Origin: a virus
DNA length: 22,453 nucleotides
Reading direction: 5' to 3' (one strand)
Virus record (IMG/VR): IMGVR_UViG_3300037293_000032
Span: 1-22,453 of that record
The notes beneath the pieces were generated by a model. It saw only the letters and a list, made by a program, of their open reading frames with translations, did no database searches and had not been told where the DNA came from. Of the stretch, positions 1 to 10,421 are shown piece after piece. Made by a program: the position numbers and the translations under genes. Numbering within the stretch: position 1 is the stretch's first letter; the number at the start of each line of letters is the position of its first letter.

Positions 1-248
1 TTAAAAGGCTCTTTTACACAACTTGATAGTTCTATATAGGTTTCGTTATGTTCTGGAAAAGTATGTATTGCAAAATGACTTTCGCTTAATAAAAATAAAG
101 CGGTGTACCCAAATGGCTCAAAATGCTTTTCGGCTATTTCTAACACATTAAATCCGCTTTGACTTAATAGTTTATTATATTTGTTTTTTAGTGCAACTGG
201 GTTTGTCTCATTAACCCATACAGAGTAATTATATATTTGTGCTTTCAT
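1..248 (-). CDS. speD: SpeD-like pyruvoyl-dependent decarboxylase, N-terminal part (cut by window edge)
   Basis: The first 82 residues are visible; the C-terminus lies beyond the left edge. The segment SESHFAIHTFPEHN is the AdoMet decarboxylase (SpeD) processing site: autocleavage at Glu56-Ser57 would give a pyruvoyl group from Ser57. His62 and Cys77 lie 5 and 20 residues after that Ser, the same spacing as the catalytic His and Cys of class 1b SpeD such as the Thermotoga enzyme. The family makes decarboxylated AdoMet for spermidine synthesis, but some SpeD homologues, including phage-borne ones, are reported to decarboxylate arginine or ornithine instead, so the substrate cannot be assigned. 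The ATG at 248 lies inside the 3' end of the preceding methyltransferase gene (20-base overlap), suggesting co-translation as the last visible gene of the early operon. Confidence 0.88.
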   Translation of the reverse strand, partial: MKAQIYNYSVWVNETNPVALKNKYNKLLSQSGFNVLEIAEKHFEPFGYTALFLLSESHFAIHTFPEHNETYIELSSCVKEPF

Positions 249-1479
249 TTAAATTTGTAAAGTTTAATTTATTGTAATTGTTTTTAATGTTTTTTGTATT
301 GCCCTTATAGAACACTAAAACGTTTTGATGACATTTCCCTATTTTTCTATTGTTCATATAACGCCCAACTCTTTGAGGTAATGTACCTAAACTTTCCGCT
401 ATTATCATTTCGTTATATATTTGTACTCCATTTTTAGCAAATATGTTTTTTATATCGTCTGGGAAACCATAGTAAAAACCTTTTTTATTTCTAATATCCC
501 CAACCACAATTACTGCAAACCTATCTTCTTTTAAACATTTTATAGCACCAGTAAATGCTTTATCTATTATTTTTAAAAAGTCCTCATAGCTTTCTTGGTT
601 ACTGGCATCGTTTTTTAGCTCAGAGTAAACCTCTAAATCAAAATAAGGTGGACAACTAAATAATAAATCTTGGCTTGCAGCTGGTATATGTTTTAAAACA
701 TTTACACCATCATCACATATATATTTGCTTTTACTACCTTTTAATCTTTCATTATTTAAATCTGCTTGTTCTCTTCTTAATTCAATACCAGTAAATTTAT
801 TACCTAATGCGTCACTTACATATCCAAAAACACTATCCCCAGCAAAACAATCAAACGTATTACCTTTTTCTATACCAAACCAGCGATTAGATATTTCTGC
901 TAAAACTGGGTCTAATATGCTAACTCCATTATTTATATCCCCCATTAATTTACTTTCAGATAAAGTACCCTCTCTTGTTTCTCCGTTATCTCCAATTAAG
1001 TCTTTCCAATATTTTTTCCTATCTATCCAGTAACCTTGCTTGGTGTCTAATATGCTAAATGGTGGCACAATAAATATATCTTGCAACTTATTATGTTCTT
1101 CTTTTTCTTCTATTGCATCAAAAGGGAAACCATCTAATCCCCATTCTTCAAGCAAATCTACATCCCATTCATTAGCTAATATATCCCAATCCCATTCTCC
1201 AAACCCAACGTTATCTTTTACAATAAATTCTTTTTGTTGTTCCTCTGTTAAATCATCTGCTTTTAAAACATACACTTCTTTAAGTCCAGCTTCTTTACAA
1301 GCCTTTAATCTCATATTACCACCCAGCACTATCATATCTTTATTAACTACAATAGGTCGTAGTTTTAACATCTCTGGAAACTCTTTAATTGATTTTACAA
1401 GTTTCTTAAATTTATGGTCTTTTATAAATCGAGGATTGTTTTCGTTGCTCTTAACCTCTTCAATTTTTATTAGTTGCAT
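229..1479 (-). CDS. ParB-like domain fused to DNA methyltransferase
   Basis: 416 residues. Residues about 4-95 form a ParB/sulfiredoxin-like domain with the box GGNMRLKA (53-60). The rest is a SAM-dependent DNA methyltransferase: motif I is FDCFAGDSVFG (209-219) and motif IV is CPPY (276-279, where other enzymes have D/N/SPPY), so the amino-methyltransferase motifs run I then IV. The product is expected to methylate adenine N6 or cytosine N4 in phage or host DNA, perhaps against restriction; the target site cannot be read from sequence. ParB-methylase fusions are common in phages and mobile elements. The start at 1479 gives a complete ParB domain. It overlaps the SpeD-like gene downstream and follows a 115-base spacer. 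Confidence 0.85.
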   Translation of the reverse strand: MQLIKIEEVKSNENNPRFIKDHKFKKLVKSIKEFPEMLKLRPIVVNKDMIVLGGNMRLKACKEAGLKEVYVLKADDLTEEQQKEFIVKDNVGFGEWDWDILANEWDVDLLEEWGLDGFPFDAIEEKEEHNKLQDIFIVPPFSILDTKQGYWIDRKKYWKDLIGDNGETREGTLSESKLMGDINNGVSILDPVLAEISNRWFGIEKGNTFDCFAGDSVFGYVSDALGNKFTGIELRREQADLNNERLKGSKSKYICDDGVNVLKHIPAASQDLLFSCPPYFDLEVYSELKNDASNQESYEDFLKIIDKAFTGAIKCLKEDRFAVIVVGDIRNKKGFYYGFPDDIKNIFAKNGVQIYNEMIIAESLGTLPQRVGRYMNNRKIGKCHQNVLVFYKGNTKNIKNNYNKLNFTNLNESTNI

Positions 1480-1973: not shown

Positions 1974-2687
1974 TTAGTTTGTTCTTAATTTTAAAAGATT
2001 ATAGCATTCTATATATCTTTGTTTTGCTTTTCCTTTATATTGTTGTTTAAATAATTCATACATTCTTTTAGTGTATTGATATTTAGTATTGCAATCAGCT
2101 AAGTACTTTTCTGCGTACTTCTTTCCCTTGCCTTTAAAATAATTTACATTATCAGCTGTATCTCCTATAATCATTTGCTCATAAAAATTATACATAGCTT
2201 CTTCTTCTGTAATATCATACACCACTTTATGCTTGTAATAATAATTATACATCAAGCAAGGTAATTGTTTGTAGTCTTTATCTATTGAAACTATCATAAC
2301 TTCATTCCTGCTAAAATCTTTAGATAAATTATGCCAATACCTAGCAACCATATCATCAGTTTCTATTCCGTAACCGTAAACAGAATTATGTTTCTCTTTA
2401 ACGTATGCGTGTACTTCATTTAATAAAGGCGGTTTCTCTTGGTTTGTTCTATTAGCCTTATACTTGCTTGTTATTAGCTTTCTAAAGTTACCTAGTGAAC
2501 CACTAAAAATAAGTATCTTGTCTATATCGTAATTTTCCTCAAGGTCATTTACAATACCCATAACTTGCTCATCAAACTTATTAGTCGCATCAGATAGTTT
2601 CTTATAATAAGGACTATCATCTGGAGTTAATCTTTTACGATAACAACTAGCAAATATTAAACTATCTGCATCTATAAGTAAAATCAC
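1974..2687 (-). CDS. FEN/T7 gp6-like 5'-3' exonuclease
   Basis: 237 residues. It has the acidic metal-binding clusters of the PIN/FEN 5' nuclease fold: ILLIDADSL at the N-terminus (Asp6, Asp8), ETDDMVARY (Glu109, Asp111, Asp112), SIDKD (Asp136, Asp138) and GDTADN (Asp176, Asp179), followed by the glycine-rich KGKGKK turn that replaces the helix-hairpin-helix of larger members. It probably removes primers or flaps, or degrades host DNA, during phage replication. The start is a GTG at 2687 that overlaps the stop of the upstream zinc-finger gene in a GTGA arrangement, and the first codons lead straight into the first Asp motif, which supports this start. Confidence 0.87.
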   Translation of the reverse strand: MILLIDADSLIFASCYRKRLTPDDSPYYKKLSDATNKFDEQVMGIVNDLEENYDIDKILIFSGSLGNFRKLITSKYKANRTNQEKPPLLNEVHAYVKEKHNSVYGYGIETDDMVARYWHNLSKDFSRNEVMIVSIDKDYKQLPCLMYNYYYKHKVVYDITEEEAMYNFYEQMIIGDTADNVNYFKGKGKKYAEKYLADCNTKYQYTKRMYELFKQQYKGKAKQRYIECYNLLKLRTN

Positions 2688-2812
2688 AACATTGATGATT
2701 TAAAACAATCTCTACTACATACACCTTTGCTTTCTATTGGTGTTCCGCATTCTGTACATTCATAATCTTTCTCATTATAATATTCGTCTAAGTCGTAATC
2801 TAATTGTGTCAT
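2684..2812 (-). CDS. Small zinc-ribbon-like protein (42 aa)
   Basis: A 42-codon frame that closes the gap between the DUF3310 gene and the exonuclease gene. The acidic N-terminus is followed by CTEC (Cys19, Cys22) and CSRDC (Cys32, Cys36), a four-cysteine pattern typical of a small zinc-binding knuckle. Its ATG overlaps the stop of the upstream gene as ATGA, and its own stop overlaps the GTG start of the exonuclease as GTGA. Such double coupling is strong evidence that it is translated. The function is unknown. Confidence 0.78.
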   Translation of the reverse strand: MTQLDYDLDEYYNEKDYECTECGTPIESKGVCSRDCFKSSML

Positions 2813-3024
2813 CTGTCTATTTTGTTTTTGTTTCTTAATAATTCAATTTCTCTATTTAAATAATCTTGTGCCTTAATTAAATCAAGTAACTCATCTTGCT
2901 TCTTTCCTGCACGTGCTACATATTTAATTATATTTCCTCTGCAAAAGTTTAAATTATAATCTCTTATAAAATCTATAATATCATAATCTCTACCACTGTC
3001 ATAATGTAATTGCGTAGCCTTCAT
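2809..3024 (-). CDS. DUF3310-like phage protein
   Basis: 71 residues that match the pattern of DUF3310: a start region with HYDSGRDYDIIDFI, then NFCRGNIIKYVARAGKK (27-43) and a terminal helix with DLIKAQDYLNREIELL. Family members are small phage proteins often found beside nucleotide or replication genes and sometimes labelled nucleotide kinase, though no kinase motif is visible here. The ATG overlaps the stop of the preceding 42-codon gene by one base (TAATG). Confidence 0.8.
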   Translation of the reverse strand: MKATQLHYDSGRDYDIIDFIRDYNLNFCRGNIIKYVARAGKKQDELLDLIKAQDYLNREIELLRNKNKIDR

Positions 3025-3152
3025 TATATAACTTCTATTTTACCATTTCTATAATGCTGACAAATAATACCAGTATCTAAAATAACTGTTTTAAATGGCA
3101 CTATATTTTTACTCTGTTTGTACTGTCTTATAATTCTTTTTATTGTTTTCAT
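3024..3152 (-). CDS. Small hypothetical protein (42 aa)
   Basis: A 42-codon frame beginning MKTIKRIIRQYKQSK, basic at its N-terminus. It ends in TAA overlapping the ATG of the DUF3310 gene by one base, the coupling seen repeatedly in this operon. I recognise no family. The coupling and the lack of any other content in this stretch are the reasons for calling it. Confidence 0.6.
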   Translation of the reverse strand: MKTIKRIIRQYKQSKNIVPFKTVILDTGIICQHYRNGKIEVI

Positions 3153-3194
3153 AATTTACCTTTTTAAATATTCTATCTTGTTTTGTTTTATTAA

Positions 3195-3395
3195 TTATGC
3201 TATTGTTAAATTGTGATTAGGTTTTTGCTTACTTAAATTTAAAAAATAAGTAGAAGCAACTAAATAATCTTTATAATATTGTTTTCTATCTACTATTGAA
3301 ATAGATTTGTCTTGAATACAATTCATTAATAATTCCATTGTATTTTCTGTTTTTTTAATTTCCGAGTTTATTTTAGCTTTAGTCATTTTACTCAT
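3195..3395 (-). CDS. Small hypothetical protein (66-69 aa)
   Basis: A lysine-rich, probably helical protein with no family I recognise. An upstream TTG at 3404 would give 69 residues, but ATG codons at 3395 (66 residues) and 3386 are more likely starts. The reading frame is the first one after an intergenic stretch that carries a long inverted repeat and a TAnnTTTG element, so it probably opens a transcription unit that reads on through the DUF3310, exonuclease and methyltransferase genes. Confidence 0.55.
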   Translation of the reverse strand: MSKMTKAKINSEIKKTENTMELLMNCIQDKSISIVDRKQYYKDYLVASTYFLNLSKQKPNHNLTIA

Positions 3396-3412
3396 TTCAC
3401 TCAAATTTGATG

Positions 3413-3478
3413 ACTGTACAAAACTGGATACACTACATATTAGACTATCAATATAAGGGGCATCACTTTTTGTACAGT
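3413..3478. repeat. 11-bp perfect inverted repeat with 44-bp interior
   Basis: ACTGTACAAAA at 3413-3423 is the exact reverse complement of TTTTGTACAGT at 3468-3478. Each arm contains the hexamer palindrome TGTACA. The element sits between a TAnnTTTG promoter element (3491-3498) and the first gene (start 3395), so it could be a pair of operators or a stem in the mRNA leader. There is no transposase and no flanking duplication to suggest a transposon end. Confidence 0.6.
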
Positions 3479-3490
3479 TGTTTAATTTAT

Positions 3491-3498
3491 CAAAAATA
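3491..3498 (-). promoter_or_regulatory. Bacteroidota-type -10 element TATTTTTG
   Basis: On the minus strand this reads TATTTTTG, an exact match to TAnnTTTG. A TTG lies 22 bases upstream, within the looser spacing reported for flavobacterial promoters. A near-copy of the surrounding sequence precedes the other early transcription unit at 7244-7251. Confidence 0.5.
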
Positions 3499-3540
3499 CA
3501 AAACTTATTTTAATTATTAACAATAAAATGTTAATAATTT

Positions 3541-3702
3541 TTAAATTAAATTGTAAATCCTTGTATAACAAATGTTTATCAGACCAAGATATATTACAAA
3601 ATCCTTCTCAATGACTTCTTTTTCTATAAAATTTTCCTCCATAACGCCAAAAATAATACCTTTAAGTAGTGTTATATTAATTTCGTATCCTATATATTCC
3701 AT
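3541..3702 (-). CDS. Small hypothetical protein (53 aa)
   Basis: A 53-codon minus frame beginning MEYIGYEINITLLKG and overlapping the 3' end of the PD-(D/E)XK nuclease gene by 13 bases. It has an alternating hydrophobic pattern with an acidic middle, and no family I can name. Its position directly after the nuclease gene, and the way it ends just before the promoter-like sequences, suggest a real gene closing this operon segment. Confidence 0.55.
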   Translation of the reverse strand: MEYIGYEINITLLKGIIFGVMEENFIEKEVIEKDFVIYLGLINICYTRIYNLI

Positions 3703-4250
3703 TTGTTTTTTATTTTTTTTAAGTCTTCGTAGTCATTACTTAGCTTTAGTTTAACAATATCTTTTAAAACCTCATTTCTTTCTTGAAGATTTATCCTGTC
3801 AGATAACTGATTCAACTTTTGTATAATTTCTTTTTTCATCGTATAAATTGTATCATTATTATTAATCATTGCTGCTTGGCTTTCCTCTAATAGATAACAA
3901 GGCTTTAATACTTTACTGTTGTTCCACATAGTTGTCATAGGACAATATTTGTTTACAGGTTCTGGCATCTTAATATCATTTAACCAGAACATATAATTTG
4001 CTTTTGGGTCATTAACGAAGTAAAAAGCAACCTTACCAGTAGCTATTAGCTTATCGTATTTAAACTTTTCAAGCATCTTAGTAGAATAATATTTATTTCT
4101 AAACTTCATCTCTATAACGCATTCTTTTCCTTTTGGAGTTAAACCCTCTGCATCCCAGCTTTCACTTCCTTCTCCTGTCCAATTTAATTGCCATCCCTCT
4201 AAATTTAAAATGCTTACTACTGATTTTTCTAGTTGATGTTGTTTGTTCAA
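3690..4250 (-). CDS. PD-(D/E)XK-type nuclease
   Basis: 186 residues. The order is an N-terminal helix (LEKSVVSILNLEGW), then SWDAEGLTPKGKECVIEMKF, in which Asp33 and the Glu47-x-Lys49 pair form the core of a PD-(D/E)XK nuclease site. The C-terminal third is a helical, charged segment. Comparable phage proteins act as recombination or Holliday-junction type nucleases, or as restriction-like nucleases; which one applies here cannot be seen. It lies in the replication operon, ends inside the start of the 53-codon gene, and follows the short Cys/His protein by 15 bases. Confidence 0.65.
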   Translation of the reverse strand: MNKQHQLEKSVVSILNLEGWQLNWTGEGSESWDAEGLTPKGKECVIEMKFRNKYYSTKMLEKFKYDKLIATGKVAFYFVNDPKANYMFWLNDIKMPEPVNKYCPMTTMWNNSKVLKPCYLLEESQAAMINNNDTIYTMKKEIIQKLNQLSDRINLQERNEVLKDIVKLKLSNDYEDLKKIKNKWNI

Positions 4251-4265
4251 ATTTATTTATTTAGA

Positions 4266-4454
4266 TTAATATTTTCTATCAATATCAGCAATCCACATTA
4301 AGTAAATCTTACCATTGCAACTACAAGGTTCGTGATATTTATGGTTGTAATACTTTGCGTGTAATGTACATAATATCTTTCTATATTCTGGAGTTAGTTT
4401 GTTTGTAACGTTTGCTTTAAAATCAACCCATATATTTTTATCTTCTTCTACCAT
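4266..4454 (-). CDS. Small conserved-looking phage protein with Cys/His cluster (62 aa)
   Basis: 62 residues. The middle carries LCTLHAKYYNHKYHEPCSC, a cluster of cysteines and histidines that could bind a metal ion. I recognise the general pattern from small proteins of Bacteroidota phages, but no function is known to me. The start overlaps the stop of the 43-codon gene upstream by 7 bases. Confidence 0.65.
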   Translation of the reverse strand: MVEEDKNIWVDFKANVTNKLTPEYRKILCTLHAKYYNHKYHEPCSCNGKIYLMWIADIDRKY

Positions 4455-4579
4455 AACTCAACATCATTAAGTTTATTCTTTCTGTCTTCACATCCGCAAT
4501 TTTCTCCCCATATCTTTTTAACAAGCCACTTGATGCCAGTATAGGTTGTAATTAATTCAATTAGGTTTCCTAGTTTCAT
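4448..4579 (-). CDS. Small protein with TGIKWLVKKIWG motif (43 aa)
   Basis: A 43-codon frame with MKLGNLIELITTYTGIKW followed by KKIWGENCGCEDRKNKLN. The ATG overlaps the sigma-like gene's stop as ATGA, and the TAG overlaps the next gene by 7 bases. Small proteins of this shape (an amphipathic helix, then CGC and a basic tail) recur in Bacteroidota phages. The role is unknown. Confidence 0.72.
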   Translation of the reverse strand: MKLGNLIELITTYTGIKWLVKKIWGENCGCEDRKNKLNDVELW

Positions 4580-9779: not shown

Positions 9780-10421
9780 CTAAGCATCCGTTTTCATAAG
9801 GAAGTTATGCCATTGGTTTGCCATAGCCTGTGCAATTCCTGGAAATGTTTTACTTCTTAGTTTTGCTCTTTCATCCTTTGGTAGTTTACACGCATCAGCA
9901 TACCAAGCAGGCATAGTTTTACCACTCTTAAATTCTTTTCGCTTTGGTGGTTCAACCTCATTCGTAGGATTCAATGTCGGAAGTCCTTTAATCCAAAGGC
10001 AGGTTTTCTTTTCAAATGGGTCGCCAAATTGATAAGGGGTTATTATTTGGTCAGGTTTCCGCCATTCGCTACTCATTACGCCAACAGGGTTTTCAATTAC
10101 AATATGGTCGCAGTTAGCATTTGCAAACATCATAAAGAATTTAATCGCTTCTTTACGGTCTGCGTGTCGCTTCACGGCTTTTTCACCATATCTTTCAATA
10201 TTAAACCATCTATTGCCTGTCACAGTTAAGTAGGTACACGGTGGAAAGCTAATAATCAAATCCCAATTTTCTTTTAATAGTTCGGTTACATCTTTTTGCA
10301 AGTGCCATTCAGGATGTCCACCGCTACAAGGCAATATATCACAAGAAAAAGCCTCGTGTCCTAACTTTCTAAATTCTTTCGTTACTGCTTGGCTTTCCTC
10401 ACAGGCTATTAATATTTTCAT
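9780..10421 (-). CDS. DNA cytosine methyltransferase-like protein
   Basis: 213 residues. ILIACEESQAVTKEFRKLGH is a SAM-binding start like C5-methylase motif I with the E-x-S variant. SFPPCTYLT (58-66) carries the PPC motif IV with the catalytic Cys62, and ENPVG (110-114) and QFGDPFEKKTCLW (131-143) follow as in motifs VI and VIII. The protein is far shorter than typical Dcm/HhaI enzymes and has no evident target-recognition domain, so activity is uncertain. The family is common in phages. It is bounded by GTTGTGCGTA (9766-9775) and TACGCACAAC (10456-10465), an exact 10-base inverted repeat, and its stop codon adjoins the left repeat. Confidence 0.72.
   Translation of the reverse strand: MKILIACEESQAVTKEFRKLGHEAFSCDILPCSGGHPEWHLQKDVTELLKENWDLIISFPPCTYLTVTGNRWFNIERYGEKAVKRHADRKEAIKFFMMFANANCDHIVIENPVGVMSSEWRKPDQIITPYQFGDPFEKKTCLWIKGLPTLNPTNEVEPPKRKEFKSGKTMPAWYADACKLPKDERAKLRSKTFPGIAQAMANQWHNFLMKTDA

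Follow-up and report, generated by a model that had tools for sequence, protein, structure and literature searches.

A Short Phage SpeD Overlapping a ParB-DNA Methyltransferase Gene: A Candidate Two-Gene Module for Aminopropylation of DNA

Results

Our analysis of a viral contig revealed that a short S-adenosylmethionine decarboxylase (SpeD) gene overlaps the gene of a ParB-domain DNA methyltransferase-like protein, that the active site of SpeD is intact, and that the cofactor loop of the methyltransferase covaries with the presence of its partner gene; decarboxylase activity of a relative of this SpeD is known from a publication. On balance, we lean slightly towards a reading in which SpeD would supply decarboxylated AdoMet (dcAdoMet) to the neighbouring enzyme, which would put an aminopropyl group on DNA, the chemistry of the product being predicted from sequence comparison. 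For the broader proposal, the chances appear evenly balanced: that a widespread phage and prophage module is a natural nucleic-acid aminopropyltransferase system giving a cationic DNA modification, from which a derived subclade reverted to AdoMet through a basic residue and its own AdoMet synthetase. SpeD itself is known; what is new is the methyltransferase partner and its changed loop. No paper on aminopropylated DNA or dcAdoMet-dependent DNA modification was found in our literature search of open-access published papers.

The Short SpeD and Its Fold

The analysed stretch (hereafter the window) is an entire IMG/VR record of 22,453 bp, and the SpeD gene ends beyond the contig edge. The SpeD reading frame on the minus strand starts with an ATG at position 248 and runs off the left edge at base 3 after 82 residues (Table 1). 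It matched Pfam AdoMet_dc (PF02675) with 51.3 bits (curated cut-off 25, E = 1.7e-13) and PHROG 27309, an S-adenosylmethionine decarboxylase family with a profile of just 96 positions (E = 7.9e-35). Relatives of this SpeD are encoded in 80 viral loci, the best of which shows 93% identity across all 82 residues and has a full length of 89-90 aa. Measured to the stop codon, close relatives have 89-99 aa and the whole set mostly 86-111 aa. Judged by the full lengths of the close relatives, the window SpeD probably lacks a few residues, about 7-10, at the contig end. The original prediction had taken the 82 residues for the front half of the enzyme; the relatives have no back half of that kind.

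The same prediction of a phage-borne SpeD with an ESH cleavage site and correctly spaced His and Cys was confirmed. Ser57, His62 and Cys77 are invariant in an alignment of 36 diverse relatives and align with the structure 1tlu, and their spacing (His +5, Cys +20) is that of S63/H68/C83 in T. maritima, for which the roles of His68 and Cys83 were taken from PMC10407285. The window gene is a SpeD of the genuine AdoMetDC lineage, an already known kind of enzyme. A truncated pseudogene was considered and rejected, as the relatives are uniformly short and the active-site residues invariant.

Table 1. Positions of the features in the window and, for the last four rows, in the viral loci named.
Feature	Position	Strand	Basis
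Short SpeD / S-adenosylmethionine decarboxylase proenzyme, 82 of about 89-90 residues	3..248	-	ORF, Pfam, PHROG, full-length relatives
Ser57 codon (E-S-H), predicted self-cleavage site and pyruvoyl precursor	78..80	-	Alignment, 1tlu
His62 codon, equivalent of T. maritima His68	63..65	-	Alignment; PMC10407285
Cys77 codon, equivalent of T. maritima Cys83	18..20	-	Alignment; PMC10407285
ParB-domain DNA methyltransferase-like protein, 416 aa, predicted decarboxylated-AdoMet user	229..1479	-	PF01555, weak PF02195, phrog_498
ParB N-terminal-like domain, methyltransferase residues 2-72	1264..1476	-	PF02195 7.2e-05, below curated cut-off; PDB ParB chains
Catalytic motif IV S-C-P-P-Y, residues 275-279	643..657	-	Common to unlinked relatives
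Cofactor loop (motif I) F-A-G-D-S-V-F-G, residues 212-219	823..846	-	Comparison with unlinked relatives
Asp215 codon	835..837	-	Always Asp if SpeD-linked; Gly in 92/92 relatives of the Gly/Arg type, thinned set
Phe218 codon	826..828	-	Phe/Ile if SpeD-linked; Arg if unlinked; Lys in MetK-associated subclade
MetK-adjoining methyltransferase, loop FAGDTQKG (L270)	1949-2992 with 2992-4551
MetK-adjoining methyltransferase, loop FAGDTQKG (L347)	2470-3501
MetK-adjoining methyltransferase, loop FAGDTQKG (L349)	1392-2441
MetK-adjoining methyltransferase, loop FAGDTQKG (L350)	2439-3482

The C-terminal helix and last strand of canonical class 1b SpeD (about 115-130 aa overall) are absent from the short family. 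The model of a full-length relative (L003, pLDDT 96) has the order beta-alpha-beta-beta-beta-beta-alpha with a terminal helix at 79-89, and its best PDB matches in a structure search were T. maritima AdoMetDC 1vr7/1tlu; as modelled, this is the SpeD fold, intact despite the short C-terminus. Li et al. 2023 (PMC9992855) showed that spermidine was restored in an E. coli speD mutant by the SpeD of Croceibacter phage P2559S when E. coli speE was co-expressed. This protein of 106 aa is 60% identical to the window SpeD over 77 residues; its locus (L061) is among those aligned, and the invariant motif residues are shared. Loss of the remaining SpeD core had been foreseen as a point against the enzyme; formally the last strand is indeed lacking, but the P2559S homologue is active and the model fold is intact. 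Because this short relative is active, the canonical C-terminal part seems not to be required for activity, which suggests that the family consists of shortened SpeD members. From the activity of the same relative, the window SpeD likely decarboxylates AdoMet.

The original prediction had also raised a change of substrate to arginine or ornithine. In such an explanation the amine product would be used for DNA packaging or attached to DNA, and SpeD homologues of such kind do exist in phages and bacteria. Yet the closest assayed relative, that of P2559S with the same gene arrangement, is a true AdoMetDC (PMC9992855) and shares the alignment and invariant motif residues of the window SpeD; ornithine or arginine is therefore an unlikely substrate, and we regard this explanation as very improbable.

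Pairing of SpeD with a ParB-DNA Methyltransferase

The suggested coupling to a ParB-methylase gene was found as a physical overlap: the methyltransferase gene lies directly upstream, and the start codon of SpeD is 20 bases within its 3' end. The methyltransferase gave a full-length profile match to phrog_498 (E = 1.9e-117) and contains the PF01555 domain and a CPPY motif IV. Structure search retrieved Rossmann methyltransferases, the best being Trm11/TrmN/Trm14 (Z 17-19, rmsd 2.0-2.9, 174-185 aligned), a result uninformative as to the donor.

A homologue of the methyltransferase is directly upstream of SpeD in 72 of the 80 SpeD-seeded viral loci, counted as ending within 400 bases upstream of SpeD and usually with an overlap or a gap of tens of bases. 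The same gene pair is present in two cultured phages, P2559S (gp66/gp67) and Pseudomonas (Stutzerimonas) phage ZRG1; in the latter, SpeD is longer (129 residues) and terminase genes follow downstream. In linked loci, the first and second genes 3' of SpeD most often belong to families that resemble the small and large terminase subunits, a reading made by sequence inspection that agrees with the annotation of ZRG1, and the module is found just upstream of terminase genes in many relatives. The pairing persists across contigs with assignments to the Bacteroidota, Bacillota and Pseudomonadota. A second origin of the pairing was not found: no methyltransferase is annotated beside the SpeD of Bacillus phage vB_BcoS-136 (a 357-aa SpeH) or that of Moorella phage MTATph1.

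Six viral records (L029, L038, L064, L071, L079 and L080) contain a short SpeD with no match to the ParB-methyltransferase or PF01555; therefore, the short SpeD probably serves other purposes too. In L064 (4449-5101), L071 (1026-1675) and L080 (4968-5646), the short SpeD adjoins another SpeD-like protein, which is 121 aa long, has no ESH cleavage site and matches AdoMet_dc in the case of L064; the pairing recalls that of AdoMetDC and prozyme in trypanosomes. In L029 (5001-7339) and L038 (5001-7805), which are very large phages with records of 289 and 250 kb, the short SpeD is near a thymidylate-synthase-like gene, and the ParB-methyltransferase was detected in neither record.

Elsewhere in the window, the gene that shortly precedes the ParB-methyltransferase and SpeD, likewise on the minus strand (1595-1972), encodes a small protein with the helix-turn-helix of the DnaA C-terminus (PF08299). 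There is also an RNA ligase gene (PF09414; 10526-11446, minus), and beside it (9780-10421, minus) the gene of an unassigned 213-aa protein that matched no Pfam family; it has a PPC-type motif and, on visual inspection, resembles phage DNA-cytosine-methylase-like proteins.

Cofactor Loop of the Methyltransferase

Comparison of motif I revealed two types of loop. In unlinked phage relatives (Listeria B054, Enterococcus phiFL3A and others) it reads FAGGSVRG or near variants, whereas in SpeD-linked methyltransferases it reads FAGD[S/T]VFG or near variants. All 72 scorable SpeD-seeded loci have Asp at position 0 and Phe or Ile at +3. When all gathered loci were scored automatically, Asp with Phe/Ile beside SpeD was counted in 118 sequences and Gly with Arg without SpeD in 135, with some loci shared between searches; loop patterns seeded some of the searches and so biased the loops found, and no search combined loop and SpeD. 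One seeming exception (L269) proved on inspection to have SpeD. In a scan of bacterial genomes seeded on the methyltransferase alone, with L269 included after inspection, SpeD accompanied the D+F loop in 24/24 scorable cases and any other type in 0/54. A scan of every alignment column revealed that positions 215 and 218 divide the linked and unlinked groups completely and carry the most radical exchanges (Gly to Asp and Arg to Phe), the remaining clean-separating columns being conservative aromatic or aliphatic swaps. Across 39 members, down to 38% identity, Asp is constant and Phe nearly so. In L105, the gene 3' of an Asp/Phe methyltransferase gene (2825-4111) resembles that of a terminase small subunit, and the 532 bases available downstream contain no SpeD.

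Spermidine synthase from plants has an Asp (D103) within GGGDGG; this residue pairs with the dcAdoMet amine, and the AdoMet carboxylate is assumed to be repelled by it. The exchange D103I abolished aminopropyl transfer and gained weak methyl transfer, and V106T, at +3, improved the use of AdoMet (PMC3725402). The position of Asp215 fits the motif-I slot of this Asp103, a tentative match that rests on the shared motif-I pattern; profile comparison of the methyltransferase with spermidine synthases gave no alignment. We infer that the Arg of the family is the partner of the AdoMet carboxylate. Asp also occupies the motif-I slot in small-molecule methyltransferases that have GCGDG loops and use AdoMet, and it is kept in the MetK subclade described below; therefore, Asp alone is no proof of dcAdoMet use.

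Tree and the Subclade without SpeD

In a tree computed without the loop columns, all Asp members lie beyond one branch (SH-aLRT 87), which points to a single origin of the state with Asp, Phe and SpeD. The perfect association between loop and SpeD is essentially one gain and one nested loss, i.e., few independent events, which Fisher p values leave out of account. Nested within the Asp clade are members with Asp and with Lys at +3 that have no SpeD and retain the clade-specific Phe229, Tyr253 and Gly258. Immediately upstream of the methyltransferase, a phage gene for AdoMet synthetase (MetK) is present in four of the six members scorable upstream (L270, L347, L349 and L350; in L270 and L349, Pfam confirmed the synthetase family), while L267 and L306 have no upstream MetK and the upstream region of L348 is cut. 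The loop and its neighbours in this subclade suggest a natural reversal, in which SpeD would have been lost and a basic residue regained, the supplied cofactor being AdoMet in most cases.

One origin on the tree is also what would be expected if Asp and Phe were neutral marks of a lineage, the methyltransferase still used AdoMet and the pair had simply been co-inherited. This account is at odds with the retention of Asp, and nearly always of Phe, down to 38% identity, with the pairing retained across contigs of Bacteroidota, Bacillota and Pseudomonadota, and with the correlated loop change in the MetK subclade; we hold it to be decidedly unlikely.

Pyridoxal-phosphate enzymes were observed next to two relatives without SpeD. 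In Mycobacterium phage Vincenzo (L089, 1-1440 and 1406-2275), the methyltransferase gene is overlapped by a PF00291 pyridoxal-phosphate enzyme gene annotated as carboxylate deaminase, and in Pseudanabaena phage Pam4 (L358, 464-2953) the relative is part of one long frame annotated as a pyridoxal-phosphate enzyme. This arrangement possibly reflects another cofactor or product chemistry on DNA.

Fate of Decarboxylated AdoMet

Spermidine synthase (PF01564) was searched for in 49 phage records, of which P2559S and ZRG1 are complete and many others are fragments, and no member was found; the window record likewise gave no match. Among 12 genomes with module genes, some of them perhaps incomplete, four (G049, G050, G052 and G053) gave nothing for PF01564, and for PF02675 nothing but the prophage SpeD. 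Polyamine manipulation was among the first suggestions for this gene; in a role of polyamine supply, SpeD would raise spermidine for phage replication. This is the published view of phage polyamine genes and has been proposed for other phage SpeDs, and the SpeD of P2559S functions with E. coli SpeE (PMC9992855). Because no spermidine synthase was found in the 49 phage records and none was matched in several prophage-bearing genomes, polyamine supply is an unlikely general explanation; its constant partner, moreover, is a DNA methyltransferase. We consider its probability about as low as that of neutral co-inheritance.

The other proposal for AdoMet was that SpeD drains it. By depleting AdoMet and making dcAdoMet, the enzyme would act against AdoMet-dependent restriction, BREX or signalling of the host, and the methyltransferase would merely be a neighbour that protects the phage DNA first. 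The family does include an active AdoMetDC (PMC9992855), AdoMet-degrading phage enzymes are known as counter-defence (PMC7877911), and a like idea was raised for CmoA (PMC12783734). However, depletion would deprive of AdoMet the very methyltransferase that the phage encodes in an overlapping pair with SpeD, and it predicts neither Asp215/Phe218 nor the exchange of SpeD for AdoMet synthetase with Lys at +3. AdoMet manipulation held as a theme, while its drain form, which leaves the fixed pairing as well as the changed loop of the partner unexplained, seems unlikely, though it has more in its favour than the other alternatives.

Discussion

A Proposed Route to Aminopropylated DNA

In the reading that we favour, SpeD would cleave itself at Ser57 to form the pyruvoyl cofactor and would decarboxylate AdoMet. 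The transferase, with the Gly and Arg of its relatives exchanged for Asp215 and Phe218, would bind the decarboxylated product: Asp215 may hold the free amine of the donor, and with the Arg lost a carboxylate would no longer be favoured. A 3-aminopropyl group, rather than methyl, would then be moved onto an exocyclic amino group of a DNA base, a target suggested because motif IV is of the N6/N4 type. The positively charged adduct would probably protect the DNA of the phage, ahead of packaging, against restriction or a similar defence.

Phage SpeD genes have so far been read as polyamine genes, and if the proposal is true, a common auxiliary gene changes its meaning. The use of AdoMet analogues on DNA would extend from Cx-SAM to dcAdoMet, and DNA bearing a primary amine would offer a natural chemical handle, with altered charge and packing and plausibly with resistance to restriction. 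In two cultured phages (P2559S and ZRG1) the proposal is directly testable, and the MetK subclade is a ready reversal for the specificity residues.

Comparison with Known Systems

The closest system is that of P2559S, in which the 60% identical SpeD (gp67) overlaps a FAGDTVFG ParB-methyltransferase (gp66) as in the window, the SpeD having 106 aa compared with about 90 in the window family. The passages of PMC9992855 consulted for this comparison make no mention of the link to gp66 or of a changed cofactor loop.

In Synechococcus phage S-B43, a phage CmoA makes Cx-SAM for an adapted cytosine-C5 DNA transferase, CmoX (PMC12783734). The CmoA/CmoX/CmoY system and the window both combine a maker of an AdoMet analogue with a neighbouring adapted DNA transferase, and the S-B43 neighbourhood has ParB-domain proteins. 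They differ in donor, enzyme and adduct: Cx-SAM, a cytosine-C5 enzyme and a carboxylate adduct in S-B43, and in the window predicted dcAdoMet, a PF01555 enzyme of the N6/N4 exocyclic-amino type and a predicted amine adduct. The authors of PMC12783734 did not find N6 or N4 counterparts for Cx-SAM.

Spermidine synthase (SpeE, PF01564) has Asp in what, by motif pattern, looks like the same motif-I slot as in the window transferase (GGG-D-GG and FAG-D-SV), and use of dcAdoMet as donor is the predicted shared feature; SpeE acts on a polyamine, whereas the predicted acceptor of the window transferase, which has no sequence match to PF01564, is DNA. The ParB-DNA methyltransferases of phrog_498 (Listeria phage B054 gp77 and Enterococcus phiFL3A gp36) have the domain order and motif IV of the window enzyme and match it by profile-profile comparison over the full length, but they carry Gly and Arg in the cofactor loop and have no SpeD, where the window enzyme has Asp215 and Phe218.
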